Virus record (IMG/VR): IMGVR_UViG_3300018914_000008
Location: 1-26,483 of that record
DNA from: a virus
Length of the DNA: 26,483 nucleotides
Strand: one strand, 5' to 3'
In this document: piece after piece, positions 4,241 through 25,998 of the stretch
How the letters are laid out: each line of letters opens with the position of its first letter
Numbering within the stretch: position 1 is the stretch's first letter
Program-made: the position numbers and the translations under genes
The notes under the pieces: model-generated
Database searches by the model: none
Seen by the model: only the letters and a program-made list of their open reading frames with translations
Told to the model about the DNA's origin: nothing

Positions 4241-4720
4241 TTACGCCACCGCCTTTCCTTTTATGGTGACACTACCTCCGCCTACAGCTGATATACGCGC
4301 CCTAAATGTATTCAATCCAGTCACTTCAAACGTCCATACTTCCCCGTTTCCCGTTGTCTGAGTTGCCATGGATAGATCAGATAGTTTAACACCCTGAATC
4401 GGGTAATAGGTGCCACTAGTGCTTGCGCCCTCAAATACAACCGTTCTGCTCGTACTAGTTCCGTTTATTTCTATCGTAAGAGTTTTATAAGCTCCCACTG
4501 TAAAAGGAGTGCCGTTTCCTGCTGTTGTGGCAGCATCTTGCAAAGTTACATCTATAGTCTTGGCTTGTTGATCTCCTAGAGTTGCGTTAATAGTACCCGA
4601 CACTACACTTACATTCATAGAACCATCTGGATTAATCCCATTCGCTTGATTGACTACCGTTCCATCATCTTTAATGATCCTTCCTGAACGCGGACTATAT
4701 AGATTGATAGGGTAACTCAT
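4241..4720 (-). CDS. Probable fibre or surface-binding structural protein (beta-sandwich)
   Basis: This encodes 159 aa from ATG 4720, chosen over ATG 4726 because AGGAGGG then lies 6 nt away instead of touching the start. The sequence is rich in Thr, Gly, Ser and Val with alternating strands (VSGTINATLG, KTLTIEINGTSTSRTVVFEG, VTGLNTFRARISAVGGGSVT), which suggests an Ig-like or beta-sandwich fold, as in phage fibre tips and head decoration proteins. It has no cysteines and no signal peptide. It lies between the endolysin and the truncated deacetylase-like gene, an accessory slot common for host-recognition proteins. I do not recognise a specific family. Confidence 0.65.
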   Translation of the reverse strand: MSYPINLYSPRSGRIIKDDGTVVNQANGINPDGSMNVSVVSGTINATLGDQQAKTIDVTLQDAATTAGNGTPFTVGAYKTLTIEINGTSTSRTVVFEGASTSGTYYPIQGVKLSDLSMATQTTGNGEVWTFEVTGLNTFRARISAVGGGSVTIKGKAVA

Positions 4721-21416: not shown

Positions 21417-23102
21417 CTAGAAATTTAAGGCATCTAACATGTCTAAGGAATCCTCTAAATCAATTTCGCTTATTTCATCGACACGATATAACCCATGAAC
21501 GAAACATTGAAAACCATCCGTTTTTCGGCGAATTGGATCCTTTTTTTGATATTCTTTATTCCCATCTTTTTTGGTTACAACTAATACGTTATTTGTGTAC
21601 CAGCGCATTAAAGGATTATCGCCAAAGATAAATTGTTGATTGGCAAATCCTGTTTCTACACGCGGAGCTAATAAGCTATGAATAGCCTTTGGATTACGGA
21701 TGACCTCTACCTCAAACCCTGCTTTTTCTAGTGGGTCCCTTAATATCTCCATTCGGAAATTATCGCCAACGATTTTTTTGATATTATAGTACTTACTCAT
21801 CTCAACAAACCAATCTACCACATGAGTAGGATTGATCGTGGCTTCATCTACAACAGTTAGAAGGCCTTCTTCTTCCCATTCACGAATCGGGGCGAATTTA
21901 GGCTTACCAGCCATTTCAGCATCATGCTTTTTAGAATAGCTATAGTACTTGTCGACAAATTCTTTACGAGCAAAAGAGTGAGTAATAAATGGATATTTGC
22001 CTTCATGCTTAAATAAAAGCCCAACTGCTGCAAAGTCTCGTATACTTGCAAAATCTAAACAACCTATACACTCTTTATCAAGTAAATTTGGCATTGGTTG
22101 ATTAGTCGCAAGGATTTCTTCCCACTTTGCAACAGATCGTTCCAGATCAGTAACAGGTAAATTCATACGTTTGGTCATGAATTCTTCTCGGTTGCTTGGA
22201 TCATCCTCTAAATCCGAATATTCTTCCATGATGGTGTCAAATAGCCCCTGAGCATATTCCCCTCTAGGTTCACTTAACATCGGATTTGCTTTTTCCCAGT
22301 TGGAAGGGTCCTCTACTTCCCCCTCATCATCCAGCTTGCAGATAAAGGGGAATAGTGCATTTACTCTGGCTTCCCCTGTTAGAACTTTCATTGCTTTTTC
22401 TTTTAATTTATCCAGGAACCCATCACGAACATAACCATCGGTGCCAATGTAAAATTCCCTTGGATTCGGCCTCTTACCAAGTCCTGAGATATGAACACGC
22501 ACATCCTTGTTAGATTCATATTGGTGAATTTCATCAAAAACTACTGCACCATCACGCAAGCCGTCTTTTGTTTCACCATTTGAAGTTCGAAACTTTAGAA
22601 CACTGCCTGTTTTCCTAGATACTGTCTGAGTGAGTGTGGTCTTAAATGCCTTTTGCAGTACTTCATGACGTTTAATTGTTTTGTGCACTTCATCAGGTGA
22701 CGTTTTGGCCTGTTCTTCACTGTTCGCAACGATCGAAATATTATAATCTTCGATGCCATGCAATTCACTAATTAGGAAATTTGTAACCACGGAAATCAAA
22801 CCGTTCTTACCACCACCGCGCCCAAACATCCATAAAAACTTTCGGTAAAAAACACGGTTGTTATTCTTAAAAAATAAAAAGACGAAAGCAATTAAGAACC
22901 GTTGAAATGGCCCCAAGGGGAAATACCACTTCTCACCGTAGTTAATACAGTTCTCGATCATTTCGTCATCAAAATATAGATCATCGCGACTCAAAACATA
23001 TTTCTTGATGTACTTAACTAACAACACTCGCTCTTTGTTAAATTTAACTTTTCCACTTTCGTACAGCCGGATGTATTCATCCACATACTTCTGTCGGATC
23101 AT
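21417..23102 (-). CDS. terL: Terminase large subunit
   Basis: This encodes 561 aa. The packaging ATPase carries a Walker A variant WMFGRGGGKNG at residues 91-101 and Walker B VVFDEIH at 187-193. The coupling region NSEEQAKTSPDEVHKTIK is clear. The nuclease domain begins at about residue 347 with GCLDFASIRDFAAVGLLF (D350 as first metal ligand). This is the HK97/P27-partner terminase type, usually with cos-type packaging; cos sites often lie near terS but none was identified. The ATG overlaps the terS stop by four bases (ATGA). Confidence 0.95.
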   Translation of the reverse strand: MIRQKYVDEYIRLYESGKVKFNKERVLLVKYIKKYVLSRDDLYFDDEMIENCINYGEKWYFPLGPFQRFLIAFVFLFFKNNNRVFYRKFLWMFGRGGGKNGLISVVTNFLISELHGIEDYNISIVANSEEQAKTSPDEVHKTIKRHEVLQKAFKTTLTQTVSRKTGSVLKFRTSNGETKDGLRDGAVVFDEIHQYESNKDVRVHISGLGKRPNPREFYIGTDGYVRDGFLDKLKEKAMKVLTGEARVNALFPFICKLDDEGEVEDPSNWEKANPMLSEPRGEYAQGLFDTIMEEYSDLEDDPSNREEFMTKRMNLPVTDLERSVAKWEEILATNQPMPNLLDKECIGCLDFASIRDFAAVGLLFKHEGKYPFITHSFARKEFVDKYYSYSKKHDAEMAGKPKFAPIREWEEEGLLTVVDEATINPTHVVDWFVEMSKYYNIKKIVGDNFRMEILRDPLEKAGFEVEVIRNPKAIHSLLAPRVETGFANQQFIFGDNPLMRWYTNNVLVVTKKDGNKEYQKKDPIRRKTDGFQCFVHGLYRVDEISEIDLEDSLDMLDALNF

Positions 23103-23407
23103 AGTAAATCACTTGCACTGTACCCTTCATTTTGAGGTTTGATTTTTACGGATTCGATGTCTTTCCAAAGAGCGATTAAAGATGCATTAATTTTATTTCT
23201 TTCACCAATTAGAGGGTGAGCTTTCGTGAATCGCTGGGCTCCATTTTCTGTTACGATTGATTCACCCTCATCATTAATAATTTTGTTGACTCGTCTGAAT
23301 GATTTTACCAGATCAATGTACCTTTCAACTTTTTCCACTTGCACTAAATCTTCTGTATCGATCCTGCTCATTAGTTGTTCTTTTAATTTTGTTATGCTTA
23401 CTGCCAT
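23099..23407 (-). CDS. terS: Terminase small subunit, P27 family
   Basis: This encodes 102 aa from ATG 23407, with GGGGGG(T)GGG upstream; a frame reaching 23491 overlaps the zinc-ribbon gene and lacks a better site. VSITKLKEQLMSRIDTEDLV, QVEKVERYIDLVKSFRRVNK and TENGAQRFTKAHPLIGERNK are the standard P27 small terminase pattern. The protein recognises phage DNA and regulates the large subunit. Length is slightly short for the family (about 100-160 aa). Confidence 0.9.
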   Translation of the reverse strand: MAVSITKLKEQLMSRIDTEDLVQVEKVERYIDLVKSFRRVNKIINDEGESIVTENGAQRFTKAHPLIGERNKINASLIALWKDIESVKIKPQNEGYSASDLL

Positions 23408-23480
23408 ATACCCACCCCCCTTACGTGAGAAATTCACGGAAAATCTCGACAGAACAGGCCGCCCACGGTCTCCTGATTTT

Positions 23481-23648
23481 TTAAACCCCACAAAACTTTT
23501 TACCCGGGGGGTCTATTTTATTTTTATAACTACTCATTATTGGACCGCCACACTTTGGGCACTTCATTCCATCACGTATCTTATGTGATGACTCTTTAAA
23601 GCCACATCCTTTATCCATGCAGTGGTGTTGCATAAGTTTATTCTTCAT
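23481..23648 (-). CDS. Small zinc-ribbon protein
   Basis: This encodes 55 aa from ATG 23648; an internal ATG five codons later is also possible. HHCMDKGCGFKESSHKIRDG followed by MKCPKCGGPI shows four cysteines in two pairs, C10-x4-C15 and C30-x2-C33, a typical zinc ribbon, with another Cys near the end (KKFCGV). It lies between the HNH nuclease and terS, in one transcription unit, and begins four nucleotides after the HNH gene ends. Function unknown; a DNA- or protein-binding accessory of packaging is only inference. The ribosome binding site is weak. Confidence 0.65.
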   Translation of the reverse strand: MKNKLMQHHCMDKGCGFKESSHKIRDGMKCPKCGGPIMSSYKNKIDPPGKKFCGV

Positions 23649-23651
23649 AAG

Positions 23652-23984
23652 CTACCATCTCTCATCATCCCATTTGATTACTTGTGGTGTAAATCTTCTA
23701 TCGTGAATTAAATTATGATGATGCAAGCACAATGTCTCAAGGTTATTTAAGTCCAATGCTAATTCAGGCCAGAACTCTATCTCTTTAATGTGGTGAACAT
23801 TCAGTTCAATAGACTTACGTTCACCTTCTACCTTTTTTGAATCTACATGAATCTTACCTAGTCGCTTACATTCCTGGCATTCATAGTTATCTCGTTCAAG
23901 AGCTCTTTGCCTCAGATTCTTCCACTCTGTTGAATTGTAGAATTGTTTCTTTTTCTTTTTGCTTTTATATTCGTTAAACTTCAT
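23652..23984 (-). CDS. HNH endonuclease next to terminase
   Basis: This encodes 110 aa. The HNH core includes RDNYECQECKRLGKI (C36, C39), LNVHHIKEI (H64-H65) and LNNLETLCLHHHNLIHDRR (N80/N81, C86, H88-H90), with the KWDDERW end usual for phage HNH proteins. These small nucleases sit beside terS/terL in HK97-like cos phages and are needed for DNA packaging there (established for HK97 gp74). GGAGAAG precedes the ATG. Length is standard. Confidence 0.92.
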   Translation of the reverse strand: MKFNEYKSKKKKKQFYNSTEWKNLRQRALERDNYECQECKRLGKIHVDSKKVEGERKSIELNVHHIKEIEFWPELALDLNNLETLCLHHHNLIHDRRFTPQVIKWDDERW

Positions 23985-24011: not shown

Positions 24012-24182
24012 TTATTTCCTCCTAATCGCCCCTGTTGGACCTCTTTTGTAAGTATCCCTAAACTCGCCCATTAGTTCTCTATAATCTCTCTCAGTTAACT
24101 TCTCTTTCTTTCTTCTCTTCTTTTTCCTGATCTTGTTTAACTTCTCAATCGTATCTTTACCTAGCCGATCTTCTAACTTCAC
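24012..24182 (-). CDS. Small basic phage protein upstream of HNH
   Basis: This encodes 56 aa from GTG 24182 with AAGGATGTG upstream. The product begins KLEDRLGKDTIEKLNKIRKK, has a dense run of Lys/Arg and ends with ERDYRELMG then TYKRGPTGAIRRK. The pattern 'LSxxDxxELMG...TYKRG.GGAIRxK' is recurrent in small proteins near HNH/terminase genes in Bacillus phages (from memory). Function unknown; high charge suggests nucleic-acid binding. It is the first gene behind the late leader and terminator. Confidence 0.7.
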   Translation of the reverse strand: MKLEDRLGKDTIEKLNKIRKKKRRKKEKLTERDYRELMGEFRDTYKRGPTGAIRRK

Positions 24183-24210
24183 GTTAATCACATCCTTATT
24201 GCTTTAAATA

Positions 24211-24245
24211 CAAAAACAAAAAGACCACCCAAATGAGTGATCTTT
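24211..24245 (-). terminator. Strong terminator between late promoter and first late gene
   Basis: On the minus strand AAAGATCACTC-ATTT-GGGTGGTCTTT forms an 11-bp stem (two G-U pairs) with a 4-nt loop, followed by TTGTTTTTG. It faces the same way as the late genes and lies about 30 nt before the first of them, so late transcription must pass it. Confidence 0.75.
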
Positions 24246-24398
24246 AGCAGAGAAAGGTTATGAACTTCTCGAAAGGTATAATGTCCTTACGCCCTTCGAG
24301 TAGGACATAAAAGCCCTACCCAGAGTCTTATTTATTTGTCGAATCAGTAAGCGAACATATGAAGGAAAGCCGTTCCCCTCGGATCAAACTATGTTGAT
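24246..24398 (-). ncRNA. Structured late leader RNA with alternative hairpins
   Basis: No gene was found in this stretch. It would be transcribed from the promoter at about 24405. Minus-strand pairings seen by eye: GTAGGGC/GTCCTAC (24319-24313 with 24306-24300), CTCGAAGG/CCTTTCGAG (24300-24293 with 24276-24268, one bulge) and ATGTCC.TAC/GTAAGGACAT (24308-24300 with 24290-24281, one bulge). The third pairing excludes the first two, the layout of an attenuator or antiterminator. A short ATCAA/TTGAT hairpin lies near the 5' end. Whether it is a known RNA family cannot be told here. Confidence 0.45.
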
Positions 24399-24401
24399 AC
24401 T

Positions 24402-24449
24402 ACTATAATAACATGGTTTTCTACTAATACCCTGCCAAAAGTCTGCCAT
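24402..24449 (-). promoter_or_regulatory. Candidate late promoter with TGGCAG direct repeat
   Basis: On the minus strand an extended -10, TG-T-TATTAT (24405-24410 for TATTAT), lies downstream of two TGGCAG repeats spaced 11 bp (24448-24443 and 24437-24432). There is no good -35, as expected of an activator-dependent promoter. The repeat is a candidate site for the ArpU-like protein encoded just upstream; similar TGGCAG..TTTTGGCAGG sequences precede late genes in other Bacillus phages (from memory). Confidence 0.6.
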
Positions 24450-24458
24450 TCACTAACT

Positions 24459-24698
24459 TTATTCTGTCGATTCCTTATTTATTCCATACTCTTCATCCTG
24501 TTTTTCTTTGAATTTTACATATGATTCCACAATTACTTTTGGCAATAATGACAAGGAACAAAACTCGTCTATATCACGATATAATGCACATCCTTCATAG
24601 CCCTCTCCCCAATAGTCCACCATTGCCCAATAAGCAGGACAACTTCTACAACGTTTATAGCCAACATTTTCAATTGCCTCTTTAATTGCCTTTAACAT
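24459..24698 (-). CDS. Cys-rich small phage protein
   Basis: This encodes 79 aa from ATG 24698, which has AAGGTGA 7 nt upstream. KRCRSCPAYWAMVDYWGEG then YEGCALYRDIDEFCSL contains four Cys (CxxC and two more), fitting a metal-binding site. The C-terminus is helical and charged. I do not recognise a function. It overlaps the preceding Cys-containing frame by 17 nt, and both share a 'C-x2-C-P' pattern, so a duplication or related functions are possible. Directly downstream is the late promoter. Confidence 0.68.
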   Translation of the reverse strand: MLKAIKEAIENVGYKRCRSCPAYWAMVDYWGEGYEGCALYRDIDEFCSLSLLPKVIVESYVKFKEKQDEEYGINKESTE

Positions 24699-24870
24699 TT
24701 GAATCACCTTCCACAACTTCTTCTGCAACCTTATTTACCCTGTCTCGCCATCTGTTTAGTGCTTCTTGTCCTGCTCCCACAATTGAACAACGCTCAGACC
24801 TTATAGGGCATATATGACATTTTTTAGCGTAGTGCACGTTACATATCTCTATTGCTTTGTTGTTCAGTAT
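24682..24870 (-). CDS. Cys-rich small phage protein with non-ATG start
   Basis: The frame contains NNKAIEICNVHYAKKCHICP then IRSERCSIVG and GQEALNRWRDRVNKVAEEVV, with four Cys, three of them in a C-x2-C-P..C arrangement. This looks like a real phage gene. There is no ATG upstream before the in-frame stop; candidates are ATA 24870, about 7 nt after AAAGGGTGA, or CTG 24867. A GTG at codon 11 would cut the conserved N-terminus. It may start at a rare codon, be coupled to the ArpU gene that stops 24 nt before, or be damaged. Confidence 0.55.
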   Translation of the reverse strand: MLNNKAIEICNVHYAKKCHICPIRSERCSIVGAGQEALNRWRDRVNKVAEEVVEGDSNVKGN

Positions 24871-24893: not shown

Positions 24894-25322
24894 CTACTCA
24901 TAAACTTCTAACCTTAAAGCAATGGCCAAGTTATAAAATGCTTTAGCCTTTACCCTGTAATACGTTCTCTCAGACATGTTTAATTTCAAGTATACTTCTT
25001 TATCAAGTTTTCGATCTTTTCCCAAGTATAATTCCACTATGATTACTCTTTCATCGTTGTTTAGCCTGTTTACCGCTTTTTGTATCGTCTCAATGTACCT
25101 TTGTCTAAATTCTTCATTTGCTACGTTTGTCAATGCCGAATCCTCGGTAGAAGAATGAAATTGATTGGTATTACTAGGAGGAACAATGGAGAATGTTTGA
25201 GTGATCTTAGGCAGCTTTTCTTCCGGCTCAGATAGTAACAGCAATCTATATGTTTCCAAAGCTTCCTCTACCTTTTCTTTTGTGGCTTCTAGATTAATTT
25301 TTGGCAAGCTGAACAATTGCAA
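24894..25322 (-). CDS. ArpU-family late transcriptional regulator
   Basis: This encodes about 142 aa from TTG 25322, with GGAGG nine nt upstream; the frame extends to 25409 inside the previous gene, but family members begin near LQLFSLPKINLEATKEKVEE. The C-terminal half NRLNNDERVIIVELYLG and VYLKLNMSERTYYRVKAKAF is a sigma-70 region 4-like helix-turn-helix, as in ArpU and related phage late activators. Such proteins activate the packaging/structural operon. The TGGCAG repeat 400 bp downstream is its likely target. Confidence 0.85.
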   Translation of the reverse strand: MQLFSLPKINLEATKEKVEEALETYRLLLLSEPEEKLPKITQTFSIVPPSNTNQFHSSTEDSALTNVANEEFRQRYIETIQKAVNRLNNDERVIIVELYLGKDRKLDKEVYLKLNMSERTYYRVKAKAFYNLAIALRLEVYE

Positions 25323-25346
25323 ACCTCTCCACCTCCAATCAAGATC

Positions 25347-25364
25347 GGGGAGAAATATCTCCCC
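25347..25364 (-). other. Perfect GC-rich hairpin before the ArpU start
   Basis: GGGGAGA-TATT-TCTCCCC (minus strand, 7-bp perfect stem) lies between the stop of the upstream gene and the ArpU ribosome binding site. No T-run follows it, so it is not a simple terminator; it may protect mRNA or limit translation of the activator. Confidence 0.5.
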
Positions 25365-25368
25365 ATGT

Positions 25369-25998
25369 CTAGGCTGCGTTTCCTTCTTCATCCTCGCTAT
25401 TTTTTTCATCGTTTATCGAATTTAATTTTTCACTTTCACTCATTCTCCACTCATTCCATTTTTGTGCTAATGGCGCTACTCTTTTTCTATACTCTGTCAA
25501 TATATCTACGAATCGTCCAGATGATAAATTTAGATCTGAAGCTAATTTCAAATACGTTTCACCCTCCAAGAACCTCTGGATTATGTCTTGGAAATTAAAA
25601 GTCATATCGTCATAAGTTGGAGCTAGTCCACTTTGGATAAATTCATCTATTACTGCTCTTTCTATTTCTTCTTCCTCTTCAATCGTGGATTCTTTTGCTT
25701 TGGGTAGCCCTAAATCTGCTTCTAATTGTTCTTCTTCTTCCTGCTCAACTTCAGTCACAACTCCTCTGTAGTCAACCTTATAAGTTTTTATAGGTCTATT
25801 CGTATTACTGTTCAAGGTAATTTTATAGCTAATCATTTCTGAATCTAATGCTACTTCAACTCTTCTATCAATCATTTCTGATAGCCTGTCTAACTTTCCA
25901 TTCAATTCCTGCCCTTTTACCTCTAGAACAATTTCTTGTACTCCTCCTGGCTTTAAATTAACCTTCTTTATAATTGCTTTAAAATCGATATAACTCAT
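25369..25998 (-). CDS. Unknown acidic phage protein with HTH-like C-terminal part
   Basis: This encodes 209 aa, Glu-rich. The N-terminal part (SYIDFKAIIKKVNLKPGGVQ, LSEMIDRRVEVALDSEMISY) is beta-rich and resembles short phage DNA-metabolism proteins with a GG turn. The middle (about 84-112) is a run of Glu. Residues 133-165 (FQDIIQRFLEGETYLKLASD then LNLSSGRFVDIL) look like a helix-turn-helix, with the 'Y.KLA..LNLS.GR' pattern. No catalytic motif seen. It lies between RusA and the ArpU regulator, a position held by replication accessory genes. Function unknown. Confidence 0.65.
   Translation of the reverse strand: MSYIDFKAIIKKVNLKPGGVQEIVLEVKGQELNGKLDRLSEMIDRRVEVALDSEMISYKITLNSNTNRPIKTYKVDYRGVVTEVEQEEEEQLEADLGLPKAKESTIEEEEEIERAVIDEFIQSGLAPTYDDMTFNFQDIIQRFLEGETYLKLASDLNLSSGRFVDILTEYRKRVAPLAQKWNEWRMSESEKLNSINDEKNSEDEEGNAA

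Follow-up and report, generated by a model that had tools for sequence, protein, structure and literature searches.

An ArpU-type late promoter followed by a putative intrinsic terminator: a candidate pR'-tR'-like control region in a Bacillaceae-type phage

Introduction

How are the late genes of a phage expressed when an apparent terminator stands between them and their own promoter? This question is raised by a locus in an IMG/VR virus record (IMGVR_UViG_3300018914_000008, positions 1 to 26,483), which we analyzed as one stretch of 26,483 nt, hereafter called the window. An earlier note on this DNA had described a structured leader and a strong terminator ahead of the late operon and proposed an antitermination system, acting either through the leader as a cis-acting RNA or through a factor. 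Most of the features it described do exist, with one correction of strand, as all of them belong to the minus strand. The whole control region (24470-24211) lies between the gene of an ArpU-family regulator and the packaging module of what we consider a Bacillaceae-type phage.

Results

Gene order around the control region

The genes flanking the control region are the following:
24894-25409, minus strand: ArpU-family late transcription regulator (Ltr superfamily) with a C-terminal sigma-R4-like HTH (TIGR01637, E 1.1e-36; phrog_248, E 1.2e-36; AlphaFold model with Foldseek matches to sigma region 4 domains)
24459-24728, minus strand: small ORF of 89 aa (p89) between arpU and the promoter
24012-24191, minus strand: first ORF of the late operon, a small Lys/Arg-rich (basic) protein starting at GTG 24191, or at GTG 24182 with better RBS spacing
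23652-23984, minus strand: HNH endonuclease of the packaging module (PF01844)
23099-23491, minus strand: terminase small subunit, TerS (PF05119, phrog_2343)
21417-23102, minus strand: terminase large subunit, TerL (PF20441/PF03354)

In the NCBIfam scan, the TIGR01637 match of the regulator lies above the family cutoff, and arpU is located downstream of RusA. A search for relatives of p89 found none. The earlier note had placed leader and terminator before the first structural gene; the terminator indeed precedes the late operon, and the first gene itself is the small basic ORF, followed by HNH, TerS, and TerL. This ORF (24191 or 24182) begins directly past the terminator, which is separated from its ribosome site by ~20 nt, too little to fit another promoter. 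No relatives of the 59-aa protein were found in the search made for them; partial relatives of the first late ORF occur at loci L142 and L163.

Two observations on the late operon stand apart from this. The first gene past the terminator often encodes a small Lys/Arg-rich protein (window 24012-24191; L144, L163, L175, L137, and L140) with the common C-terminal pattern ..LMG....YKR..GAIRRK. In addition, a terminator-like hairpin with a U-rich tail (15536-15517, dG -9.7) lies inside the late operon of the window, directly 3' of the ORF at 16597-15536.

A late promoter with 11-bp repeats

Three elements make up the predicted late promoter:
24427-24470, minus strand: iteron array of four 11-bp units, TCGACAGAATA / AAGTTAGTGAA / TGGCAGACTTT / TGGCAGGGTAT, of a family found in relatives
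24405-24413, minus strand: extended -10 element, TGT-TATTAT
24398-24402, minus strand: TAGTA at -4 to +1 of the predicted start at 24398

The extended -10 with an upstream TGGCAG repeat reported in the earlier note was recovered at 24413-24405, with TGGCAG at 24448 and 24437. The last two of the four iteron units are clear and the first two degenerate. Transcription start sites, in the window as in relatives, were inferred from the -10. A hand-made promoter score was no better than on shuffles and was dropped; we used instead a PWM built from relatives alone, with the window left out. This matrix identified a single strong promoter in the window (24448-24395; 21.4 bits, runner-up -4.1), whereas its maximum on 200 Markov sequences was 8.1. 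A sigma-70 scan of the window missed the late promoter because it has no -35.

Regulator homologues were gathered from phages, IMG/VR, and named genomes. A query with the single ArpU protein found nothing in viral/genome contigs, while the alignments A1 and A2 found homologues; the named genomes with homologues include Melghiribacillus, Pseudalkalibacillus, Heyndrickxia, Bacillus, Virgibacillus, and others (best identity 59-61%). Downstream of the regulator gene, relatives carry 3-5 repeats of 11 bp (TGGCACAATTT, TGACAGAAAAA, TGGCAGA...), the last of which starts 27 nt before TGnTATnAT, the same spacing as in the window. Presumably, these repeats are the recognition sites of the ArpU-family regulator encoded upstream. 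With a regulator of the ArpU/Ltr family encoded upstream of the packaging module and direct repeats immediately upstream of the -10 of the late promoter, the regulator and late promoter of the window belong with the late regulators of the Ltr superfamily (RinA, ArpU, LtrC, Alt). Accessory genes are often found between arpU and the late operon in relatives.

A profile over 98 distinct sites showed TA at -4/-3 in 99%, T at -1 in 79%, and A at +1 in 75%; the positions -4 to +1 belonged to the PWM, so that selection somewhat favours this conservation, which is also visible in an earlier matrix-free scan. Across the 98 promoters, the TA dinucleotide 3 nt past the -10 equals the -10 in conservation, and a second -10-like TATTA(T) occupies -4 to +2. 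TAGTA at 24398-24402 may be such a second -10-like (pause) element. One member of the collection, phage TS-12 (L093, MW302330.1), is labelled a Stenotrophomonas phage and has a B. cereus-type ArpU promoter and leader; its host label looks wrong.

A terminator that recurs behind related promoters

One feature of the kind that marks Q- and AlpA-type control separates the late promoter from the genes it serves:
24211-24245, minus strand: predicted intrinsic terminator, an 11-bp stem (24245-24220) with a U-rich tail (24219-24211)

The 11-bp terminator with a T-rich tract claimed in the earlier note is thus present, with 11 pairs at 24245-24220, the tail TTGTTTTTGT, a dG of -12.5, and a pair probability of ~1 for most base pairs. 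It is the only such site near the late promoter.

We counted terminator-like hairpins with a U tract behind 98 distinct related promoters, excluding the window and including the named Bacillaceae genomes, in which the promoter-terminator pair was seen again. Such a hairpin started 0 to +60 from the inferred start in 55 of 98, compared to a mean of 4.0 and a maximum of 10 at random positions on the same loci (500 trials), 6.4 expected from the intergenic density, and 9 of 98 in an equal stretch upstream of the repeats. Within 300 nt downstream, the count rose to 81 of 98 (random 18.2; intergenic density 28.2; upstream stretch 17); coding sequence is commoner in the upstream stretch and reduces the number of terminators there, a bias that affects both comparisons with it. 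By the criterion used, 17 of the 98 promoters had no terminator within 300 nt. Under stricter settings (dG of -11 or lower, 6 or more T in 8), 31 were found vs 1.6. Fifty-five terminators pointed forward, toward the late transcript, and 9 in reverse. The distance from start to terminator peaks at +14 to +21, with a second group at +246 to +280, and in 77 of 78 cases the first ORF with an RBS ahead of it is located past the terminator. Many of the terminators are predicted to be strong (dG -15, long U tracts), and at 17 sites at least two follow one another within 400 nt. The hairpins vary in sequence but retain their position and the U-tract, a pattern to be expected under selection on terminator function and not on sequence.

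Two further elements were noticed at these terminators. At L109:5464-5640 and L115:5464-5690, two serial terminators downstream of the late promoter enclose a similar structured stretch (AAACCGGGT...CCCGGTTT). Several Geobacillus-type phages (L172:5060-5140, L128:5530-5590, L091:3536-3600) carry a repeated element, TTTGACGAA...TGTAGGAA...CTCCTTTTGTCG, past the terminator.

The leader RNA of the window

Promoter and terminator are separated by one further feature:
24246-24398, minus strand: untranslated leader with three adjacent predicted hairpins (24321-24298, 24297-24271, and 24270-24250)

Counted from the inferred start at 24398, the leader measures 152 nt, in agreement with the non-coding stretch of about 150 nt in the earlier note. 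The region 24458-24200 folds more stably than shuffles, modestly (z -2.3); the leader alone (24400-24246) is unremarkable (z -1.4; 14 of 200 shuffles equally good). Its best fold consists of the three adjacent hairpins, at -26.0 kcal/mol. The two mutually exclusive hairpin sets that had been proposed at 24268-24319 found no support: the forced alternative pairing ATGTCC/GGACAT reached -20.0 kcal/mol, ~6 kcal/mol worse, with a pair probability of ~4e-4. In the fold computation, pairing of leader segments with the terminator arms gave no appreciable competition. An attenuator with alternative hairpins was rejected on the basis of the fold energies.

An Rfam scan of the window yielded nothing at gathering level, be it rliG (RF02415) or another leader family, and only sub-threshold chance matches up to E 10. 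When searched by blastn against phages and all fetched loci, the leader matched fragments of the promoter core and the terminator stem only, and no homologous leader was found. The version of the earlier proposal in which the leader acts in cis like put therefore loses ground. No homologue of the leader turned up, the alternative fold carries almost no weight, and among relatives with an early terminator most leave just ~14-21 nt ahead of the hairpin, not enough for a put-type RNA. Since many relatives have less than 25 nt before the hairpin, and thus almost no leader, a transcribed RNA element or RNA switch cannot be general. We regard the three-hairpin leader of the window as an elaboration on the mechanism rather than its core.

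Described phages with the same layout

We located the -10 elements of phi11, phi13, and TP901-1 by eye downstream of their regulator genes. The rinA-terS gap of Staphylococcus phi11 (RinA) contains a pair of TGGCAG repeats at an 11-bp spacing, TATTAT and then GATAG, and a terminator at ~+61. In Staphylococcus phi13 (Ltr), promoter P23 is followed by a predicted terminator at ~+28 to +52, and in Lactococcus TP901-1 the Alt promoter is followed by a ~445-nt leader with two predicted tRNAs, a terminator, and then terS. For phi13, regulator binding to the repeat region and activation of transcription have been demonstrated, and mutation of ltr or of P23 abolishes late gene expression (PMC13123087). 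Therefore, late transcription of phi13 must in effect pass the terminator, if this terminator is real. Recurrence in relatives and in described phages of the same layout strongly supports the core of the earlier inference, namely that a terminator between late promoter and late operon has to be passed by polymerase.

In Listeria phage A118, the known sRNA rliG (RF02415, E 1.8e-64) covers promoter and leader (L100:3388-3759, from the end of the arpU homologue gp66). The earlier statement that no example had been described in this phage type is thus partly wrong, as A118 makes rliG from the same slot, although the accounts of rliG available to us do not call it a late leader. Like the window, the locus has a late promoter, a leader, and a terminator downstream of the ArpU homologue; it differs in that rliG has no sequence or structural similarity to the window leader and is recorded as an sRNA. 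rliG is listed as up-regulated intracellularly, in macrophages (PMC3556495), and an A118-like phage in macrophages shows induced early genes and poorly expressed late genes (PMC4627465); coming from different studies, this pairing of high rliG with low late genes is suggestive only.

Other long leaders occupy the same slot. Phages of the B. cereus-group type carry a conserved non-coding leader of ~260 nt (ATTGTGAGAAGTGGCGGAAAAC...) between the ArpU-type promoter and the terminator (L016:1246-1511, L064:1476-1741, L075:486-751, L093:1974-2239, and ~27 more), for which RNAalifold gave 32 pairs, 9 with compensatory changes. The representatives scanned had no Rfam match, and we consider this leader a candidate new RNA family. 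Leaders of ~500 nt (L082:3003-3575, Streptococcus phage Javan447; L098:1520-2120; L094:2994-3500, Paenibacillus Pd_22F) contain T-arm-like segments (GGTTCGAATCC) or tRNA-like pieces, with no complete tRNA by ARAGORN and no Rfam match. The predicted tRNAs between late promoter and terminator are tRNA-Lys and tRNA-Ala in TP901-1 (L223:4135-4209 and 4289-4376) and tRNA-Asn in Brochothrix BL3 (L101:3943-4014).

The ArpU protein compared with known antiterminators

In lambdoid phages (pR'-tR'; lambda, 21, and 82), Q takes the same place in the gene order as ArpU in the window: the regulator gene lies directly upstream of the late operon, a regulator site is part of the late promoter, and a leader and an intrinsic terminator precede the late genes. 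The AlphaFold model of ArpU (mean pLDDT 82) comprises an N-terminal helix, a low-confidence loop (residues 60-86) that includes the highly conserved block TNxFHSSTE, and a sigma-R4-like C-terminal domain. In a Foldseek search against the PDB, the top matches of this model were sigma-R4 domains, and neither a Q nor an AlpA structure was among the best 50 matches listed. Going by the predicted model, ArpU resembles the published description of 21Q, which has sigma-R4-like helices, an N-terminal helix, a disordered loop, and a direct-repeat site (PMC6606751). However, Pfam and NCBIfam scans gave no sequence similarity of ArpU to Q. That ArpU is itself a Q protein was rejected for want of sequence similarity and of a Q among the top Foldseek matches; it may nevertheless work like Q.

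The promoters differ as well. ArpU iterons are 3-5 units at 11 bp and lie upstream of -27, and the candidate -10-like element of ArpU promoters (near-invariant TA at -4/-3, T at -1, A at +1) is at -4 to +2, upstream of the position used in Q systems, where it lies inside the transcribed region. AlpA of Pseudomonas aeruginosa enables polymerase to run past a terminator located 3' of its promoter (PMC9371919). By analogy, this promoter-bound protein with an intrinsic terminator placed downstream offers a parallel for possible antitermination by ArpU, although AlpA differs in sequence, binding element, and host, and acts on the lysis operon of a cell-death pathway.

Discussion

We interpret the control region as a pR'-tR'-like, terminator-guarded late operon with promoter-loaded antitermination and with ArpU as the most likely factor, a reading to which we assign a probability of roughly 0.55. 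ArpU would bind the 11-bp repeats and start transcription at ~24398, and the terminator at 24245-24220 would halt polymerase ahead of the late genes. If polymerase were made terminator-resistant at or near the promoter, the late genes would be expressed; if not, the product would be a short leader RNA only. Most likely, ArpU itself would stay with polymerase as a Q/AlpA-like factor. The sequence itself displays the promoter, the repeats, the terminator, the gene order, and the recurrence of the promoter-terminator pair; regulated read-through and the part played in it by ArpU are our proposal. Q acts by altering polymerase at the promoter (PMC6606751), and the arrangement of promoter and terminator becomes understandable if polymerase undergoes a change there, as for Q and AlpA. 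A factor loaded at the promoter fits better than a put-like cis-acting RNA. The points against antitermination include the 17 of 98 promoters with no terminator within 300 nt by our criterion and the position of the iterons, which are found upstream of -27, unlike the sites of Q and AlpA in the interval from -35 to -10. In addition, partial termination behind a promoter that is strong once activated could be enough.

The latter leads to what we rank as the main rival, a passive attenuator that would suppress basal late transcription almost completely in lysogens and during early infection, with an ArpU-activated promoter, a constant fraction of read-through, and no antitermination factor. It would explain the conserved position and orientation of the terminator and require no new activity; ArpU would simply activate, as the Ltr literature has it (PMC13123087). 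Accounts of RinA and Ltr available to us describe these proteins as activators of initiation and do not mention the promoter-proximal terminator. Our literature search found no paper linking ArpU with antitermination; the primary RinA/Ltr papers were outside its reach, and they may mention the terminator. We nevertheless hold a passive attenuator to be rather unlikely, given the strength of many terminators, the 17 sites with serial ones, and the very high late-gene expression needed; the sharp +14 to +21 spacing and the near-invariant TA at -4/-3 likewise suggest something tied to the promoter.

It is less probable still that the main product is a terminator-ended small regulatory RNA, with the late genes served by read-through or other promoters. 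The span of rliG in A118, its intracellular up-regulation (PMC3556495) while late genes of an A118-like phage are low (PMC4627465), and the long conserved leader RNAs in B. cereus-group phages, Streptococcus phages, and TP901-1 are in keeping with such a role. Against it, the terminated RNA of many relatives would be ~45-50 nt long with no conserved sequence, the window leader lacks a homologue, and phi13 late genes depend on a promoter upstream of the terminator.

Gram-positive conjugative elements have a bipartite antitermination system, conAn, in which a transcribed RNA element acts together with a small protein. It resembles the mechanism proposed here as antitermination in Gram-positive mobile elements and differs in not relying on a promoter-bound regulator. 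A put- or conAn-like leader RNA, or an RNA switch governing the terminator, would suit the adjoining stable hairpins 24321-24298 and 24297-24271, which have the general shape of a put-type RNA, and the z of -2.3 for the whole region; we consider it highly improbable, as the alternative fold is negligible, no pairing competes with the terminator, homologous leaders are missing, and relatives with a terminator at +14 to +21 have no room for it. That the terminator merely ends early or accessory-gene transcripts and stands behind the late promoter by chance scarcely deserves credence despite the accessory genes often found there, as placement upstream would serve this end without blocking the late genes, terminators are found in 81 of 98 cases downstream vs 17 of 98 in the 300 nt upstream (with the coding bias noted above), and their distance is locked to the promoter.

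Returning to promoter-loaded antitermination, the regulators ArpU, RinA, LtrC, and Alt of Firmicutes phages could, as a more tentative extension, represent a third, independently evolved class of promoter-loaded antiterminators, in which a sigma-R4-like protein would activate the late promoter and, via its conserved flexible loop, carry polymerase past a terminator tens of nt downstream. The usual explanation of late-gene control in temperate Firmicutes phages invokes nothing beyond activation of transcription. That a terminator immediately follows the late promoter in most relatives and in phi11, phi13, and TP901-1 implies that the lytic genes are locked a second time, and predicts an action on elongation by the late regulators or a partner of theirs. 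rliG and further small RNAs of phages could then be late leader RNAs, like lambda 6S RNA, and such a lock may bear on the 'active lysogeny' of Listeria, with its induced early genes and silent late genes.
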